Source: Clostridia bacterium (lineage in GTDB: Bacteria > Bacillota > Clostridia > Monoglobales > Monoglobaceae). From it: a DNA stretch of 38,591 bases. Both the position numbers and the translations under genes were made by a program. Shown in pieces: positions 15,752 to 35,179 of this stretch. Positions within the stretch are counted from its first letter, which is position 1. Each line of letters opens with the position of its first letter. The stretch covers positions 1 through 38,591 of the forward strand of contig JAFSDN010000061.1 in NCBI GenBank assembly GCA_017436245.1. Direction: 5' to 3'. A model generated the notes under the pieces. It was not told where the DNA came from. It was given only the letters and a program-made list of their open reading frames with translations, and did no database searches.

Positions 15752-16483
15752 ATGTTGCCATGGATAACTTTGATTATTGTTATTGTTTTTTGTGTAATAA
15801 AAAGGTCGGAACTGATTTCGGTTCTGGCAAAGCGCAAGTTTGCCAAGGGTGACTTGCAGGGGGCTTTGCAAAAGTTTGCTCTTGCAAAAAAAATCGGAAA
15901 GCTGAGTGCGGCAAGTCTGTTCTTTTACGGCTATCTTTTGCTCAGAGACGGACAGGTTGACTATGCAGCAACAATCCTGACCCATGCATCTCTGGAGGCA
16001 AAAAAGCCTGCACTCAAAAAACGCATAAAATCCATGCTTGCGGTTTGTGAGTGGAAGAATGGCAACCTTGACAATGCAATTGAAATGACCGAGGAGGCAA
16101 TGGTTGATTACAAAACAACCAATCTCTATCAGAATCTTGGGCTTATGTATGTGATCAAAGGTGATGCAAAAAAAGCCGTTGAGTTTAACAAGGAAGCCTA
16201 TGAATACAACTCGGACGATATGATTATTATGGATAATCTTGCAGAGGCGTATGCCATTGCCGGCGATGTGGAAAATGCAACCGAAATTTATGAGAAACTT
16301 CTTGAAAAAGAACCTCATTTTCCTGAACCCTATTACGGTTTTGGTTTGCTTCTTGTTGAAAACGGTCAGAAGGAGCGGGGGATAAAGCTCATTGAGCAAT
16401 CCCTTGAAAAACGGTTTACCTTTTTGAGTGTTTTGCAGAAGGACGAGGTTGAGAAGCTGTTGGAAGAGGCAAGAAATAAATAA
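15752..16483 (+). CDS. Membrane-anchored tetratricopeptide repeat protein
   Basis: A 243-residue protein with an N-terminal hydrophobic stretch (PWITLIIVIVFCVI, residues 3-16) that probably anchors it in the membrane. Several TPR-like helical pairs follow: GDLQGALQKFALAKKIGK, NGNLDNAIEMTEEAMV, KGDAKKAVEFNKEAYEYN and AGDVENATEIYEKLLEKEP. TPRs bind proteins, but no partner can be deduced. AAGGAG lies about 14 nt before ATG 15752. It sits 25 bp after asnS and ends at a bidirectional terminator. Confidence 0.85.
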   Translation: MLPWITLIIVIVFCVIKRSELISVLAKRKFAKGDLQGALQKFALAKKIGKLSAASLFFYGYLLLRDGQVDYAATILTHASLEAKKPALKKRIKSMLAVCEWKNGNLDNAIEMTEEAMVDYKTTNLYQNLGLMYVIKGDAKKAVEFNKEAYEYNSDDMIIMDNLAEAYAIAGDVENATEIYEKLLEKEPHFPEPYYGFGLLLVENGQKERGIKLIEQSLEKRFTFLSVLQKDEVEKLLEEARNK

Positions 16484-16494
16484 AAAAAGTTTGC

Positions 16495-16517
16495 GGCACG
16501 GTGAAAACCGTGCCTTT
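16495..16517. terminator. Bidirectional terminator between convergent genes
   Basis: GGCACGG (16495-16501) pairs with CCGTGCC (16508-16514) around TGAAAA. TTT follows on the plus strand. On the minus strand the stem is followed by GCAAAC and a run of seven T. It sits between the TPR gene and the minus-strand DUF6472-type gene. Confidence 0.85.
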
Positions 16518-16524
16518 AAAATAT

Positions 16525-16719
16525 TCAGTTTTGCTTTCTTACGATTTTGTATTCGTCGTAAAAGCTGTAATAGGGGCAGGAATTGTGCCCTGATGCATAA
16601 AAGCCTGAAACCTCGTCTTCGTCAAGGTTAACCGTGCATATATCGCAGTCGGTTTCGTAGTCATAGTCGAAGTAAGCGCAGGTTTCGCATTGAGTTATTT
16701 TCTTTTCGTTTTTTTTCAT
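16525..16719 (-). CDS. Small Cys-rich DUF6472-type protein
   Basis: A 64-residue protein starting MKKNEKKITQCETC, with paired cysteines (CETC, then CDIC), an acidic NLDEDE stretch and the end CPYYSFYDEYKIVRKQ. This matches my memory of the DUF6472 family of short clostridial proteins; its function is unknown, and the cysteines suggest a metal site. The open frame extends 34 codons further upstream, but that part is AT-rich and covers the predicted promoter, so I prefer ATG 16719, with GGTGAT just upstream. It is divergent from the OLE RNA gene and converges on the TPR gene. Confidence 0.75.
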   Translation of the reverse strand: MKKNEKKITQCETCAYFDYDYETDCDICTVNLDEDEVSGFYASGHNSCPYYSFYDEYKIVRKQN

Positions 16720-16735
16720 TTTCATCACCAGGGAT

Positions 16736-16764
16736 ATTTTATCACAACCGTGATTATATTGCAA
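16736..16764 (-). promoter_or_regulatory. Predicted promoter of the DUF6472-type gene
   Basis: On the minus strand, TTGCAA (16759-16764), 17-bp spacer, TAAAAT (16736-16741). It would leave only about 10 nt of leader before ATG 16719. Confidence 0.5.
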
Positions 16765-16814
16765 GAACAAAAGTATATTATATAGATTCGGTTTAAAATT
16801 AAAGAGCAGAGTCC

Positions 16815-16843
16815 TTGACATTATGAGTCAAATAGGATATAAT
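16815..16843 (+). promoter_or_regulatory. Perfect-consensus sigma-A promoter of OLE RNA
   Basis: TTGACA (16815-16820), exactly 17 bp, TATAAT (16838-16843). Both hexamers match consensus in full, the only such promoter noticed in this window. Transcription should start near 16850, about 11 nt before the closing helix of the RNA. Confidence 0.85.
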
Positions 16844-16849
16844 ATCATT

Positions 16850-17481
16850 GAGAAATCATAGGGTAACGGTATTCTAGTCAGCTATTTCATTTCCCAGGGC
16901 GGGCCTAAAAATTCGCCGAAGGGCATATCGATGAAGTTCCTTGTGCGTGCTTGCGACGCCCAGTCGTGGGTGTGTGCTGGGAGTTAAGGTTTAGGGGCGA
17001 TCCGCAACGGCATGTGGGCGTTGACCCCTTTTCCGCGGAGGCCTGTGACCGTGTATTGGTGGGACATCCTGCCTCTGTACGTATCAGGTTAAAACCTGCG
17101 TTGCGGTATCAATTTTCATATGAAGAAAGATGCTGTGGGCAGTGTAGCCTGCCTTGAGTGGATATGGTGAATAATTGTTCAGACTTTTGCTTCGCGGCCA
17201 CGAAGCATTTGTTATCGCTTTTTGAAACCATATTTGCAAAAGAGGCTAAGAAACGGATTTAGCTGTCGAGGAAAACTCCTAGACCGGTATGTATGTGCAG
17301 GATTGTAGTGCGTACTCAGTGGCAATCAGGTAACGCAGAGCGTCGGAACATTTTTCCGATGTTTCAACGGCAACGGTGCGAGCCGGATTTTAAACGGAAA
17401 CATCCCTCTTGGCGACGATTGGGAAGTCCGGCGGGAAATCCAACCTGACCTAAGGCGCAAAGTTTACTGCATATGCTACCC
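16850..17481 (+). ncRNA. ole: OLE RNA (ornate large extremophilic RNA)
   Basis: A 680-bp stretch without a credible gene has the base composition and internal hairpins of a structured RNA. GGGTA (16861-16865) can pair with TACCC (17477-17481) and close it. Clear internal stems include GCTTCG/CGAAGC (17189-17206) and TCGGAA/TTCCGA (17343-17359). Size near 630 nt, the position directly before a gene for the OLE-associated membrane protein, and dxs-tlyA-nadK-recN downstream match the known OLE locus. OLE RNA binds OapA at the membrane as a ribonucleoprotein; mutants elsewhere are sensitive to alcohols, cold and high Mg2+. The identification rests on size, structure and context, not a covariance search. 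The 5' end is predicted from the promoter, the 3' end from pairing. Confidence 0.88.
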
Positions 17482-17531
17482 TTTATTTTCTTTTATAAAA
17501 GTTTATGTTGAATTATACTGGAGTTGAGATT

Positions 17532-18113
17532 TTGAAAGAGGAAGTTCCCCGAAAACAAAAGATAAAGTTCAAACCGTCAAATTCAAAAAAGACCGACAAA
17601 AGCTGGATTGCCAAAACAACCGTTATCACCTTTACCATGTCGGCGGTATTTTCGTTGCTGTCCAACAGTGTCATGGATATGGTGAGCATCTGGGTTGCAA
17701 TTCTGATTCTTCTGGCTATTGTTTTTGTGGGTATTTTGTTTGATATAATAGGCATGGCGGTTACATCTGCCGAGGAAGCGGTTTTTCATTCCATGGCGGT
17801 GCAGAGGGTGAAGTATGCAAAGGGTGCCATAGCCTTGATTAAATCAAAGGAAAAGGTTTCGAACTTTTGTAACGATGTGGTTGGCGACATCTGCGGTATT
17901 GTCAGCGGTTCGGCTTCGGCGGCGGTGGTTGCCTTTGTTCTTAATTCAAATCCAAATCTCAACAGTGTTGTTATGAGTCTTGTTATCACGGCAACTGTTG
18001 CGGCTTTGACTGTTGGCGGCAAGGCTGTTGGCAAGAGTATTGCCATGAGATACAGCAACTATATTATATATAATGCGGCAAGAGTATTGTCCATTTTGAA
18101 ATTCCGTAAATAA
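17532..18113 (+). CDS. oapA: OLE-associated membrane protein A
   Basis: A basic N-terminus (RKQKIKFKPSNSKKTDKSW) suited to RNA binding is followed by hydrophobic segments: a pair at TTVITFTMSAVFSLL and VSIWVAILILLAIVFVGILFDII, then a second pair near VSGSASAAVVAFVL and VVMSLVITATVAAL. Acidic and polar residues (FDIIGMAVTSAEEAVFHSM; NFCNDVVGDICG) lie in conserved parts recalled from OapA. OapA binds OLE RNA and holds it at the membrane. I prefer TTG 17532, with CTGGAG 8 nt upstream, giving 193 residues. An ATG at 17505 would add nine residues but lacks a ribosome binding site. It lies about 50 bp after the RNA and 36 bp before dxs. Confidence 0.88.
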   Translation: MKEEVPRKQKIKFKPSNSKKTDKSWIAKTTVITFTMSAVFSLLSNSVMDMVSIWVAILILLAIVFVGILFDIIGMAVTSAEEAVFHSMAVQRVKYAKGAIALIKSKEKVSNFCNDVVGDICGIVSGSASAAVVAFVLNSNPNLNSVVMSLVITATVAALTVGGKAVGKSIAMRYSNYIIYNAARVLSILKFRK

Positions 18114-18149
18114 AAGATAAAGATTACGGCAGAAAAAACGGTGTGTTTT

Positions 18150-20003
18150 ATGAAGAAATTTTTGGATGCAATTAATTCATCTGATGATGTTAAAAAACTG
18201 AATATCCCTGAGCTTGAAATACTTGCGGCGGAAATCCGTGAGTTTTTGATTGAAAATATTTCAAAGAGCGGGGGACACTTGGCATCAAACCTTGGTGCGG
18301 TGGAGCTTACGCTTGCCTTGCACAAGGTTTTTGATTTTTCTTCGGACAGAATTGTGTGGGATGTGGGACATCAGTCATATGCCCACAAGATTATCAGCGG
18401 TCGGAAAAATGTTTTTGGCACATTGCGTCAAAAAGGCGGAATCAGCGGGTTCCCCAAAACTGAGGAATCGGAGGCTGATGCATTCAACACGGGACATTCG
18501 TCAACGGCGATTTCAGCTGCAATGGGCTTTGCAAAGGCTTTTGAGCTTTCGGGGGCTTGCGGCAAGGCGGTTGCGGTTGTTGGTGACGGAGCATTGACCG
18601 GCGGCATGGCTTATGAGGCGCTGAACCATGCAGGAAGCGGAAAAACGCCTTTGGTTGTTATTCTTAATGACAACGGAATGTCCATTTCGGAAAATGTCGG
18701 CGGACTTTCACGGTACCTCAGAAAGATTGTGAGCAGTTCGGAATACATTGGTGTTAAAAAGTCGGTAAAGAATTTTTTGCGTGACCTTCCGGTACTGGGT
18801 AAGCCTTTTGGCATAATGATGAGGTCGGGAAAGAGGTTCATAAAAAAGATTCTTTTGCCCAAAAAGCTCTTTGAAAATATGGGGCTTGAATATCTTGGTC
18901 CCATTGACGGACATGACCTGAAGGAGCTTATTGCAATTTTTGACTATGTGAAATCATTTGATAAGCCTGTTATGATTCATGTTGTCACAAAAAAGGGGAA
19001 GGGCTATGAGCCGGCAGAAAAACGGCCTGCACAATTTCACGGAGTGGGGGCTTTTGACCCTGCAAGCGGTGAGCTTGAACCAAATGGAAGAGTTACGTAT
19101 TCGGACACCTTTGGCTCGGAAATTTTGAGGCTTGCAAAAAGAAATGAGAAAATTTGCTGTATAACTGCGGCTATGCCCATGGGAACGGGATTGATTGACT
19201 TTTCAAGGTGCTTCCCCGAAAGATTTTTTGATGTGGGCATTGCGGAACAGCACGCCGTGACCTTTGCGGCGGCATTGGCAAAGGCAGGGCGGATTCCTGT
19301 TTTTGCGGTGTATTCCACTTTTTTGCAAAGGGGATATGACCAGATTTTGCATGACGTTGCTCTTCAGAATTTGCACGTTGTTTTTGCCATAGACCGTGCG
19401 GGGGCATCGGGAAATGACGGTGAAACCCATCAGGGAATTTATGATTTTTCGTATCTTTCACATATACCGAACATGACAATTATGGCACCCTCGTCCAATG
19501 AGGAGCTTGCCGAAATGCTTGATTTTGCAATTAACAAATGCACAGGTCCTGTTGCCGTGCGTTATCCCAAGGGCGAAAATTCCGTCAAAGGGAAAGCCCT
19601 TGCCAAAATTGAATACGGTTGCGGCATTGTTGAACGGCAGGGAACCGATGTTTTGATTGCGGCGGCAGGCTCGCAGGTTGCGGAGGCTGTTTTGGCGGCT
19701 GAAGAGCTTTTTGAGCGAGGAATTTCGGCAGAGGTGCTGAATCTCAGATTTATCAAGCCTTTTGATGAAAAACTGTTCGGTGAGGCGGTAAAGGGAAAGA
19801 AGCTGATTGCGGTGACTGAGGACAATGTGGGAATCGGCGGTTTGACAGATACTGTGCGTAGGAGCTTTGACGGCAGAATCATTGGATTTTCGTTTCCTGA
19901 TGTGCCCCTTGAACACGGAACGATTAAGGAACAGAAGATGCTTGCCGGAATTGACGGACACAGCATGGCAGAGAGAATAATTTCAGAACTTACGGGTGAT
20001 TGA
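18150..20003 (+). CDS. dxs: 1-deoxy-D-xylulose-5-phosphate synthase
   Basis: Dxs condenses pyruvate and glyceraldehyde-3-phosphate, using thiamine diphosphate, to begin the MEP isoprenoid pathway. About 617 residues. Family motifs are WDVGHQSYAHKI, the TPP/Mg2+ motif GDGALTGGMAYEALNHAG with a later NDN, and the pyrimidine-binding half YSTFLQRGYDQILHDVALQ with AIDRAG. I chose ATG 18150, giving MKKFLDAIN as in relatives; an in-frame GTG at 18141 is the alternative. The ribosome binding site is weak, so translation may couple to oapA. The next gene starts 1 nt after the stop, or overlaps if its GTG is used. Confidence 0.97.
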   Translation: MKKFLDAINSSDDVKKLNIPELEILAAEIREFLIENISKSGGHLASNLGAVELTLALHKVFDFSSDRIVWDVGHQSYAHKIISGRKNVFGTLRQKGGISGFPKTEESEADAFNTGHSSTAISAAMGFAKAFELSGACGKAVAVVGDGALTGGMAYEALNHAGSGKTPLVVILNDNGMSISENVGGLSRYLRKIVSSSEYIGVKKSVKNFLRDLPVLGKPFGIMMRSGKRFIKKILLPKKLFENMGLEYLGPIDGHDLKELIAIFDYVKSFDKPVMIHVVTKKGKGYEPAEKRPAQFHGVGAFDPASGELEPNGRVTYSDTFGSEILRLAKRNEKICCITAAMPMGTGLIDFSRCFPERFFDVGIAEQHAVTFAAALAKAGRIPVFAVYSTFLQRGYDQILHDVALQNLHVVFAIDRAGASGNDGETHQGIYDFSYLSHIPNMTIMAPSSNEELAEMLDFAINKCTGPVAVRYPKGENSVKGKALAKIEYGCGIVERQGTDVLIAAAGSQVAEAVLAAEELFERGISAEVLNLRFIKPFDEKLFGEAVKGKKLIAVTEDNVGIGGLTDTVRRSFDGRIIGFSFPDVPLEHGTIKEQKMLAGIDGHSMAERIISELTGD

Positions 20004-20004
20004 T

Positions 20005-20802
20005 TTGGATAAAATTCGACTTGATGTTTTTTTGGTTGAACAGAATATGGCTCCAAGCCGCAGCGCCGCACAGGCAATGATTATGGCGGGGGATGTTTAT
20101 ATTGACAATCAGAAGGCGATGAAAGCCGGTGAAACGGTTAAAGGAACTGAGAATATTGAAGTGCGGTCAAATGGACCTGCGTATGTGAGCCGTGGGGGGC
20201 TCAAACTGGAAAAGGCAATGAAGGTTTTCCCCGCAACTCCTTTGGGAAAGGTTTGCATGGACATTGGCGCGTCAACCGGAGGCTTTACAGATTGTATGCT
20301 CCAAAACGGAGCGGTGAAGGTATATTCCGTTGACGTGGGCTACGGTCAGCTTGCGTGGAAGCTCCGTCAGGACGCAAGGGTTGTGAATATGGAGCGCACC
20401 AATATCCGTTATATTGACAGAGAACTGGTGACAGAACCGCTGGAGTTTTTCTCGGTGGATGTTTCGTTTATTTCGTTGAAGCCTGTTTTGCCTGTTGCTT
20501 ATGAATTGCTGAAAGAGGGCGGTGAGGGCGTTTGCCTTATTAAGCCCCAGTTTGAGGCAGGCCGCGAAAAGGTTGGTAAAAAAGGTGTTGTGAGAGAAAA
20601 ATCAACACATATCGAGGTTATTGAAAAGGTGCTGGAGTTCACAAAGGAAATCGGTTTCTCGGTGAGGGGGCTTGATTTCTCGCCCATAAAAGGCCCTGAG
20701 GGAAATATTGAGTATCTTATGTATATAAAGAAGGATGATGCCGAATCTGAAAGTTTTGATGTTGCAGATTTGGTGGAACAATCGCACAACCTTAACAAAT
20801 GA
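20005..20802 (+). CDS. tlyA: TlyA family rRNA 2'-O-methyltransferase
   Basis: A 265-residue protein with an N-terminal S4 RNA-binding domain (KIRLDVFLVEQ to about residue 60) and an FtsJ-like Rossmann methyltransferase domain with the SAM motif CMDIGASTGGFTDCMLQNGA. Catalytic-tetrad candidates are the Lys in GGLKLEKAM, the Asp in FSVDVSFISL, the Lys in LIKPQFEAG and a late Glu. TlyA methylates the ribose of cytidines in 16S and/or 23S rRNA. I chose TTG 20005, with GGGTG 6 nt upstream; GTG 19996 is an alternative that overlaps dxs by 8 nt. tlyA between dxs and nadK is common in Firmicutes. Confidence 0.94.
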   Translation: MDKIRLDVFLVEQNMAPSRSAAQAMIMAGDVYIDNQKAMKAGETVKGTENIEVRSNGPAYVSRGGLKLEKAMKVFPATPLGKVCMDIGASTGGFTDCMLQNGAVKVYSVDVGYGQLAWKLRQDARVVNMERTNIRYIDRELVTEPLEFFSVDVSFISLKPVLPVAYELLKEGGEGVCLIKPQFEAGREKVGKKGVVREKSTHIEVIEKVLEFTKEIGFSVRGLDFSPIKGPEGNIEYLMYIKKDDAESESFDVADLVEQSHNLNK

Positions 20803-20822
20803 GTTTGAAGGAAGGGATAATT

Positions 20823-21671
20823 ATGGAAAATATTGCGTTGTTTGTAAACAGAGACCGTGATGCTGACCTCTCGGCTACCAAAGAGGTTATTTCCCTTTTG
20901 AAAAAATATAATAAGACTGTTATTCTTGATGTGTCGCTGAAGGATGAGTTGGACTTGCCGGATTTGTATTATGCAAAGGGTGACGGAATTTTTGAGATTT
21001 GTGATGCGGTTTTTGCCCTTGGAGGTGACGGAACAATTCTGAAAATTGTCAATCAGGCGGCAGAGTTTGATGTTCCCGTTGCGGGAATAAACCTCGGACA
21101 TCTTGGGTTTCTTACTCAGGCGGAACGTAACGACCTTTCAAATCTTGTGAAAATTCTTGATAACGATTTTTCGGTTGAATACAGAATGATGATTGATGCC
21201 CGGGTGGTTTCGGACGGAAAGGTTGTTGAAACACATTCGGCACTGAATGATATAATTGTCCGTGGCGATTCGGCAAAGATGATTTCCCTTACGGCAGAGG
21301 TGGACGGAACCGAGGCCAGCAGTTATCTTGCTGATGGGATTATTGTTGCAACCTCAACGGGTTCAACGGCGTACTCCCTTTCCTGCGGCGGCCCTATTGT
21401 ACACAAGGCGCTTGACTGCATGATTGTGACGCCTGTGTGCCCTCATACAATGAAATCAAGGTGTATACTTGTTCCTCCCGAATCGGCGGTGGTTGTTCGT
21501 TTTGATGCAACATATTCCGACGAGATTGATTTGAAAATTGACGGCATCTCGGTTCGCAGACTCGGCGACGGTGAGTACATAGAGGTGGTGCGCAGTTCAA
21601 AGCGTGTACCAATGATTAATGTGGATTCAAGAGGATATTTTGATGTTATCCGTGAGAAGCTTTCGGATTGA
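20823..21671 (+). CDS. nadK: NAD kinase
   Basis: NadK phosphorylates NAD to NADP. The 282-residue protein shows the hallmark GGDG at residues 67-70 (FALGGDGTILK), the NAD-binding ND in SALNDIIVRG, and the Gly-rich TSTGSTAYSLSCGGPIV near the C-terminal beta domain. I chose ATG 20823, with AAGGAAGGG upstream; an earlier in-frame ATG at 20799 would overlap tlyA and adds only eight residues. In many Firmicutes argR lies between nadK and recN, but here recN follows after 18 bp. Confidence 0.96.
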   Translation: MENIALFVNRDRDADLSATKEVISLLKKYNKTVILDVSLKDELDLPDLYYAKGDGIFEICDAVFALGGDGTILKIVNQAAEFDVPVAGINLGHLGFLTQAERNDLSNLVKILDNDFSVEYRMMIDARVVSDGKVVETHSALNDIIVRGDSAKMISLTAEVDGTEASSYLADGIIVATSTGSTAYSLSCGGPIVHKALDCMIVTPVCPHTMKSRCILVPPESAVVVRFDATYSDEIDLKIDGISVRRLGDGEYIEVVRSSKRVPMINVDSRGYFDVIREKLSD

Positions 21672-21689: not shown

Positions 21690-23384
21690 TTGCTTAAAGA
21701 ATTGCATATAAAAAATATTGCTGTTATTGATGAAGTACACATTGAGTTTTTTGAAGGATTTAATGTTCTCACCGGTGAAACGGGTGCAGGGAAGTCAATA
21801 TTGATTGATTCCATTAATATGGCTCTTGGCAAGCGTGTGAGCCATGATTTGCTTCGGAGCGGATGTGACAAAGCGGTGGTTAATGCCTGCTTTGAGGTGT
21901 CGGGACAAAAGATTCTGGAAGCACTTTCGGATATGGGTGTTGATGCAGAGGACGGGCTTGTTGCCATAAACCGTCAGCTGACCGAGGACGGAAAGTCAAC
22001 GTGCAGAATAAATGGTGTTGCCATGCCTCTTGGTGTGGTGCGTGAGGTGACCTCGCTCCTTATTGACATTCATGGTCAGAACGACAATCAGTCCCTTCTG
22101 AACGCAAACAGCCACAGGGGCTTGCTTGATGATTTTGGCAATTGCGGCGAGCTTTTGGAGGAGTACAGGGGAATTTACAAAAGGATGAAGGCTCTGCGTC
22201 GTGAAGAAGAGGAGCTTTCGGCTTCCTTTGATGAAAGGGAACGCAGAATGGAGCTTTTGTCATTTCAAATTAATGAGATTGAAAGTGCAAAGCTGAAAAT
22301 CGGCGAGGACGAAGAGCTTGAAACAAAACGGGATTATTTGTACAATATGGAAAGTATTGTGTCGGGGACGGGAACTGCTTACGGTGCTTTGTACGGTGGC
22401 GAACAGATGTCGGCTTATGACCTTTTGAGGCAGGCAGAACGCAGTCTTTCGGGGATAAGTCAGTATCTCCCCAACCTCTCGGAATGTTATGAACGGCTGG
22501 AAAGTGTTATTGCCGAGACCGAGGATATTGCATCGGAGCTGAATTCCTGCCTTTCGTCAACGGATTTCAATATGGCAGAGCTTGACATGATTGAGGAACG
22601 TCTTGACACAATCGGGAATTTGAAACGCAAATACGGAAATACTATTGAAGAGATTATTGAATACGGAAAGAATGCTCAGCTTGAAGCATCAAACATTGAA
22701 CACAGTGACGAGAAGCTTGAACTTATACGTGCCGAAATTAAGGCGGTCGGGGCTGAGCTTGAAGCTGTGGCGGCAAAGCTGACGGAAAAACGTAACGATT
22801 CTGCAAGGGTTCTTGAAAAAAGGATTGCCAATGAGCTTGCAGACCTTGATATGCCAAAGGTGAGATTTGAAATTCAGGTTTCGGAGAGGTGCGAAGACGG
22901 CAAAACGGCTTACGGAGATTCGGGCAAGGACAAGGTTGAATTTCTGCTTTCAACAAATCCCGGTGAGGATTTGAAGCCCATGTCAAAAATTGCATCAGGC
23001 GGTGAGCTTTCAAGAATTATGTTGGCGGTGAAATCGGTTCTTTCGGATTCGGAGGATATTGACACCATGATATTTGACGAGATTGATACGGGTGTCAGCG
23101 GACGTGCGGCACAGAAAATTGCCGAAAAACTGGCGCTTCTGGCAAGAAAGAAGCAGGTTTTTTCAATCACTCATCTTGCACAGATTGCAAGCATGGCTGA
23201 CAATCATTATCTGATAAAAAAGACCTCAACCGATGAAAAAACCTCAACACAGGTGACTCTTCTTGAGCAGGAGGGCAGAATTGAAGAGCTTTCAAGAATC
23301 ATTGGCGGTGTCAGCGTTACCGACCTGACACGTAGCAGTGCGCTTGAAATGCTTGAACTGGCAAAATCTATAAAGGAAAATTAA
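21690..23384 (+). CDS. recN: DNA repair protein RecN
   Basis: RecN is an SMC-like ATPase acting early in double-strand-break repair. The 564-residue protein has Walker A GETGAGKS (residues 29-36), a long charged coiled-coil middle interrupted near its centre, the signature ASGGELSRIMLAVKS, and Walker B MIFDEIDTGVSG near residues 457-468. The start is TTG 21690, giving MLKELHIKNIAVID, the family's usual opening; AAGGG lies 9 nt upstream. Same operon as nadK. Confidence 0.96.
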   Translation: MLKELHIKNIAVIDEVHIEFFEGFNVLTGETGAGKSILIDSINMALGKRVSHDLLRSGCDKAVVNACFEVSGQKILEALSDMGVDAEDGLVAINRQLTEDGKSTCRINGVAMPLGVVREVTSLLIDIHGQNDNQSLLNANSHRGLLDDFGNCGELLEEYRGIYKRMKALRREEEELSASFDERERRMELLSFQINEIESAKLKIGEDEELETKRDYLYNMESIVSGTGTAYGALYGGEQMSAYDLLRQAERSLSGISQYLPNLSECYERLESVIAETEDIASELNSCLSSTDFNMAELDMIEERLDTIGNLKRKYGNTIEEIIEYGKNAQLEASNIEHSDEKLELIRAEIKAVGAELEAVAAKLTEKRNDSARVLEKRIANELADLDMPKVRFEIQVSERCEDGKTAYGDSGKDKVEFLLSTNPGEDLKPMSKIASGGELSRIMLAVKSVLSDSEDIDTMIFDEIDTGVSGRAAQKIAEKLALLARKKQVFSITHLAQIASMADNHYLIKKTSTDEKTSTQVTLLEQEGRIEELSRIIGGVSVTDLTRSSALEMLELAKSIKEN

Positions 23385-26873: not shown

Positions 26874-26902
26874 TTGACAATTTTATTTTTCTTTGATACA
26901 AT
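26874..26902 (+). promoter_or_regulatory. Predicted promoter of the 2-hydroxyacid dehydrogenase gene
   Basis: TTGACA (26874-26879), 17 bp, TACAAT (26897-26902). It starts 6 bp after the previous stop, and transcription would run through two hairpins before the gene. Confidence 0.7.
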
Positions 26903-31852: not shown

Positions 31853-31881
31853 TTGACTATTTTATGCAAATAGTGTATAAT
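31853..31881 (+). promoter_or_regulatory. Predicted promoter of the PLP-enzyme gene
   Basis: TTGACT (31853-31858), 17 bp, TATAAT (31876-31881), 23 bp before the preferred TTG start. Confidence 0.7.
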
Positions 31882-35150: not shown

Positions 35151-35179
35151 TTGACTTTTGATAATTGCTGATATATAAT
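35151..35179 (+). promoter_or_regulatory. Predicted promoter of the SGNH hydrolase gene
   Basis: TTGACT (35151-35156), 17 bp, TATAAT (35174-35179), 28 bp before the ATG. Confidence 0.75.

Follow-up and report, generated by a model that had tools for sequence, protein, structure and literature searches.

A stretch of roughly 630 nt without genes, followed by a gene for a membrane protein and then by dxs-tlyA-nadK-recN, raised the question of whether this Clostridia contig carries an OLE RNA together with its protein partner OapA and, if so, whether the pair is intact. OLE RNAs, characteristically abundant, stable and about 600 nt long, rank with the largest conserved RNAs of bacteria whose biochemical function is still unsolved; ribozyme activity and c-di-AMP synthase activity are proposals in the literature. 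We analysed the whole stretch of DNA (38,591 nt, hereafter the window), its own genome (G000, 74% complete) and the genomes of its relatives. Note that absences in G000 were judged by genome search together with the genus mates.

A full-length OLE RNA behind a consensus promoter

The Rfam covariance model for OLE (RF01071) matched 654 nt of the window far above its gathering threshold of 50 bits (E 5.4e-128), which establishes the identity that had been proposed without a search; the structured region had been estimated at about 630 nt. No other Rfam match was found in 16000-18500, even in a permissive scan at E<=0.1. The promoter and the elements of the RNA are:

16815..16843, + strand: ole promoter, TTGACA-17 nt-TATAAT, 12/12 consensus
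16845..17498, + strand: OLE RNA, full length (RF01071 positions 1-616), 446.3 bits
16901..16917, + strand: P4 hairpin with an A-rich loop, an RNA dimer contact in cryo-EM (PMC12286853, PMC12265935)
16954..17016, + strand: P5 loop CGACGCCCAGTCG (16954) and P6 loop CAACGGCATGTG (17005), GCC/GGC kissing contacts (PMC12265935, PMC9723947, PMC12054373)
17193..17202, + strand: P9 loop with a GGCC palindrome, the symmetric kissing loop of the dimer (PMC12286853)
17335..17373, + strand: enlarged hairpin in the P12 region, lineage-specific, longer than in most relatives
17401..17428, + strand: P13 region with the conserved GGCGAC loop, the OapB-binding region in Halalkalibacterium halodurans (PMC9723947, PMC11332333)

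When 22 OLE RNAs were aligned, RNAalifold predicted 166 pairs, of which 98 showed one or more compensatory changes; these pairs are those of the program's own structure and not of Rfam's. The universally conserved OLE positions are intact in the window copy. As in the full-length OLE type (PMC11332333), the match to the model is complete, including P7-P9 and P13, the RNA has its own promoter, oapA adjoins it and the partner genes are present in the genome; the window RNA differs in its enlarged P12-region hairpin and in a shortened peripheral hairpin. The loops that join two RNAs in the cryo-EM structures, P4, P5/P6 and P9 (PMC12286853, PMC12265935), are all present here. P5 and P6 make kissing contacts, the base of P5 forming the kink-turn region for OapC and P6 serving as the region for bS21 (PMC12265935, PMC9723947, PMC12054373), and in the window the GCCC of P5 could pair with the GGC of P6. 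The CCUCCU anti-Shine-Dalgarno mimic of the H. halodurans P6 is absent here in its exact form (CCCCUUUUCC), but the G-C pairs are kept. An apparent second OLE copy in a related genome, G007, was discarded as an assembly duplicate, its contig C20 being 99.96% identical to part of C1.

Position 16815, at which the original prediction began the locus, is exactly the -35 box of the promoter. By chance, 0.32 consensus promoters with at most one mismatch would be expected in the whole window. Among the ole loci of relatives (n=18), seven carry a 12/12 promoter with a 17-nt spacer at the same place, and seven more a promoter matching at 10-11 of the 12 positions. Three further near-consensus promoters were observed on the + strand of the window (26874-26902, 31853-31881 and 35151-35179, each with one mismatch and 17-nt spacing), making four with that of ole against the same expectation. 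On the other strand, a short, cysteine-containing DUF6472 protein (16525-16821, - strand, 75.7 bits) is encoded between a TPR protein and ole. Since the start of its gene overlaps the region of the ole -35 box (16815-16821), both may be under divergent control.

OapA, the neighbouring genes and the partner proteins

The genes downstream of the RNA, and the motif that marks OapA, are:

17532..18113, + strand: oapA, 193 aa, TTG start, with a GGAG Shine-Dalgarno at 17520-17523, 8 bases before the TTG
17874..17888, + strand: DxxxD motif (D115-V-V-G-D119), the mark of OapA
18141..20003, + strand: dxs (TIGR00204, 737.5 bits)
19996..20802, + strand: tlyA (TIGR00478, 255.9 bits)
20799..21671, + strand: nadK, NAD kinase (best score 208.9 bits, below the equivalog cut-offs)
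21690..23384, + strand: recN (TIGR00634, 549.3 bits)

The oapA gene starts 33 nt downstream of OLE, most likely at the TTG at 17532, and with this start the predicted length of 193 residues is correct; no Shine-Dalgarno is evident for the alternative in-frame ATG at 17505. The sole curated family match of the protein is Pfam CNNM, at 18.0 bits and so below the cut-off of 28.4. The OapAs of OLE-bearing relatives all likewise stay under the CNNM gathering score, and OapA has been described as a separate cluster that scores lower for CNNM (PMC11332333), so reaching that score does not define the family. This score alone is no proof of OapA, because the unrelated PlsY reaches 16.2 bits. A supposed OapA without OLE, in the OLE-free genome G021, was rejected for this protein: it is PlsY (188.7 bits), and its 16-bit CNNM score arose by chance. 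A second OLE-free genome, G024, encodes a short CNNM-like protein of the same length as the G021 PlsY, the separate domain scan having covered G021 only.

The DxxxD motif is the distinctive feature of OapA and is missing from CNNM domains (PMC11332333); N114-D115-V116-x-G118-D119 was invariant in 49/49 sequences. The OapA profile found no match among the PDB sequences, and the folds therefore had to be compared. The AlphaFold2 model (mean pLDDT 82) superimposed on the CNNM protein MtCorB (7m1t) with Z 13.8 and 2.0 Å over 126 residues, and on the transmembrane domain of a bacterial CorC (7cff) with Z 12.2. The best unrelated fold reached 8.3, and Foldseek by itself gave a weak match (E 0.01). 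Moreover, a scan of GTDB genomes with the OapA alignment yielded 80 loci, chosen by the protein alone, and OLE lies directly upstream in 79 of them. In the 80th, L155, only 67 bases of contig precede the protein match. The nearest named loci belong to assemblies of uncultured Oscillospiraceae/Clostridia, and many of these carry sample names that point to ruminant guts. Synteny, motif and modelled fold thus agree that the downstream protein is OapA, as had been predicted.

Binding of OLE RNA at P2/P4a is one mark of the OapA family. Like the OapAs of H. halodurans and other Bacillota, the window protein has about 190 aa, four long helices, a basic N-terminus, the DxxxD motif and a CNNM-like fold, and its gene comes directly after ole; it is about 40-45% identical to the OapA of Halalkalibacter species, and no structural novelty was seen. 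With the Mg2+ transporters of the CNNM family (MpfA, CorB and CorC) OapA shares the transmembrane fold, and their occurrence is mutually exclusive. It differs from them by the DxxxD motif and by lacking CBS and CorC_HlyC domains, neither of which was matched in the 193-aa protein; the transporter architecture of CNNM, CBS and CorC_HlyC is therefore not that of the window protein, whereas the MpfA of a genus mate, G005, has all three.

The gene order dxs-tlyA-nadK-recN was confirmed. Upstream, asnS and the TPR protein precede ole; this side varies by species within the genus, where a membrane protein, argH or an ispE-like gene takes the place. The position of OLE beside ordinary metabolic genes, which the original prediction singled out, is seen, but its surprise was overestimated: isoprenoid, DNA repair and translation genes are typical neighbours of ole (PMC12265935). 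In two genomes, G026 (C14/C6; L019, L090) and G028 (C14/C86; L013, L091), OLE and oapA are split over contigs, an uncommon arrangement, and in G028 an unrelated gene lies downstream of OLE.

In H. halodurans four partners have been validated: OapA, OapB, OapC and bS21 (PMC9723947, PMC12054373). Homologues of OapB and OapC were indeed found elsewhere in the window's genome. OapB (93 aa, G000:C74) was located via its map-infA neighbourhood and has 7k9b ('OLE-associated protein B') as its best solved relative (E 1.5e-11); the KOW profile PF00467 was abandoned as a route to it, giving only two matches in G000, which resemble L24 and NusG by size and place. The OapC candidate is an L7Ae-family protein (G000:C110) encoded directly before rpsL-rpsG and matching the YbxF-type chains 4lck/3v7e (E ~1.5e-10). 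Because L7Ae proteins score alike, YbxF was singled out by synteny. Together with OapA and bS21 (G000:C89, PF01165, 86.8 bits), all four validated partners are therefore encoded. Note that bS21 was not found in four OLE-bearing genomes that are 81-93% complete (G009 and G017 of genus g2, G030 and G033 of genus g15), so its partnership with OLE may not be general. The P6 G-C pairs are kept in these four genomes despite the missing match, and P6 may perhaps be conserved not for bS21 alone.

Could the RNA be a decayed, non-functional remnant kept beside oapA by chance? Its score is the lowest of the full-length copies in the genus (446 vs 455-486 bits) and its P12-region and peripheral hairpins have changed in size, but the full-length match, the intact conserved positions, the perfect promoter, the intact oapA with its DxxxD motif and the presence of all partners make decay extremely improbable. 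A related question is whether the region is a separate RNA gene at all, or a long cis-regulatory leader of oapA-dxs. OLE has the same orientation, stands directly before these genes with no clear terminator between, and the cluster is also co-transcribed in H. halodurans (PMC12265935). In that species, however, OLE exists as an RNA of its own, abundant and processed, and works with proteins (PMC9723947), and the OLE and oapA of G026 and G028 lie on separate contigs, with the G028 OLE preceding an unrelated gene. A leader is thus a very unlikely explanation, and we retain a separate, intact ole gene paired with oapA.

OLE and MpfA within the genus and the order

OLE is present in 8/9 genomes of the window's genus, the ninth, G005 (88% complete), being without it. 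In the tree of methionine aminopeptidase, which is one gene only, G005 is nested inside the OLE-bearing genus (node 98/97). Its argH is followed by dxs across a gap of about 160 nt (C32, L028), while G002 (C26, L009) has argH-ole-oapA-dxs. G005 encodes a complete CNNM-CBS-CorC_HlyC protein, that is, a full-length MpfA, and the search of its OLE-bearing genus mates gave no MpfA match above the cut-off. At the level of the order, we compared 41 genomes, namely the window's own genome and those at least 80% complete. CorC_HlyC was found in 2/17 OLE-bearing genomes, one of the two being a fragment at the edge of a contig, and in 23/24 OLE-free ones (Fisher 3e-8, uncorrected for kinship). These data agree with the anticorrelation of OLE and MpfA published across Bacillota (PMC11332333) and extend it down to the genus scale. 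One contig, G034:C1 (L003, L189), carries a full OLE-oapA and a full-length MpfA, and is an exception to the exclusion.

How this exclusion arose can be read in two ways. The MpfA of G005 clusters with those of the OLE-free neighbouring genus g4 (100/99), and to judge from the sequences it may have been transferred or retained, the two being indistinguishable. Tentatively, OLE-OapA and MpfA could have been exchanged within the genus as functional equivalents in Mg2+ handling, with G005 having lost ole-oapA cleanly and relying on its g4-related MpfA; we consider this possible but doubtful. That the exclusion is due instead to lineage or genome size, and not to functional replacement, is a serious possibility, if one short of an even chance. 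In its favour, the genomes of OLE-free genera in the family are mostly larger, kinship makes the compared genomes non-independent, MpfA occurrence clusters by phylogeny, and both systems occur together in G034. Yet the G005 genome, at 1.3 Mb, is like those of several OLE-bearing genus mates and still shows the exchange, and the anticorrelation also holds Bacillota-wide (PMC11332333).

The proposed OLE particle and its relatives

We think it likely that the full-length ole and its oapA form a stress-supporting membrane ribonucleoprotein, partly in place of MpfA. The gene would be transcribed strongly from its own promoter, and the RNA would fold and then dimerise via the P4, P5/P6 and P9 loops. 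An OapA dimer, with its CNNM-like transmembrane fold and DxxxD motif, would anchor the RNA dimer at the cell membrane, while OapB would sit on P13, OapC at the kink-turn of P5 and bS21 at P6. Such a particle would sustain growth under stress, including excess Mg2+, and would partly substitute for the Mg2+ exporter MpfA, which is absent from the OLE-bearing species of the genus. The RNA identity, the promoter, the partner genes, the conserved contact sequences and the MpfA exclusion were observed directly; binding, membrane localisation, the dimer and stress phenotypes published for other species suggest that assembly and function of the particle in this organism are most likely the same.

The locus is a further example of the established OLE system and leaves the knowledge of OLE unchanged. 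A role beyond extremophiles, as originally suggested, fits the established presence of OLE in anaerobic and gut Bacillota but is not new, since the 2,822 published OLE matches across Bacillota already include uncultured gut clades (PMC11332333). As the biochemical function of OLE is unsolved, this well-conserved copy, accompanied by every known partner in Clostridia related to gut species, is a good comparative case. The loss of ole-oapA within a genus, together with the presence of MpfA, makes the published idea of functional replacement testable on close relatives. If this exchange is true, G005 and its OLE-bearing genus mates would be a close natural pair for testing the role of OLE.
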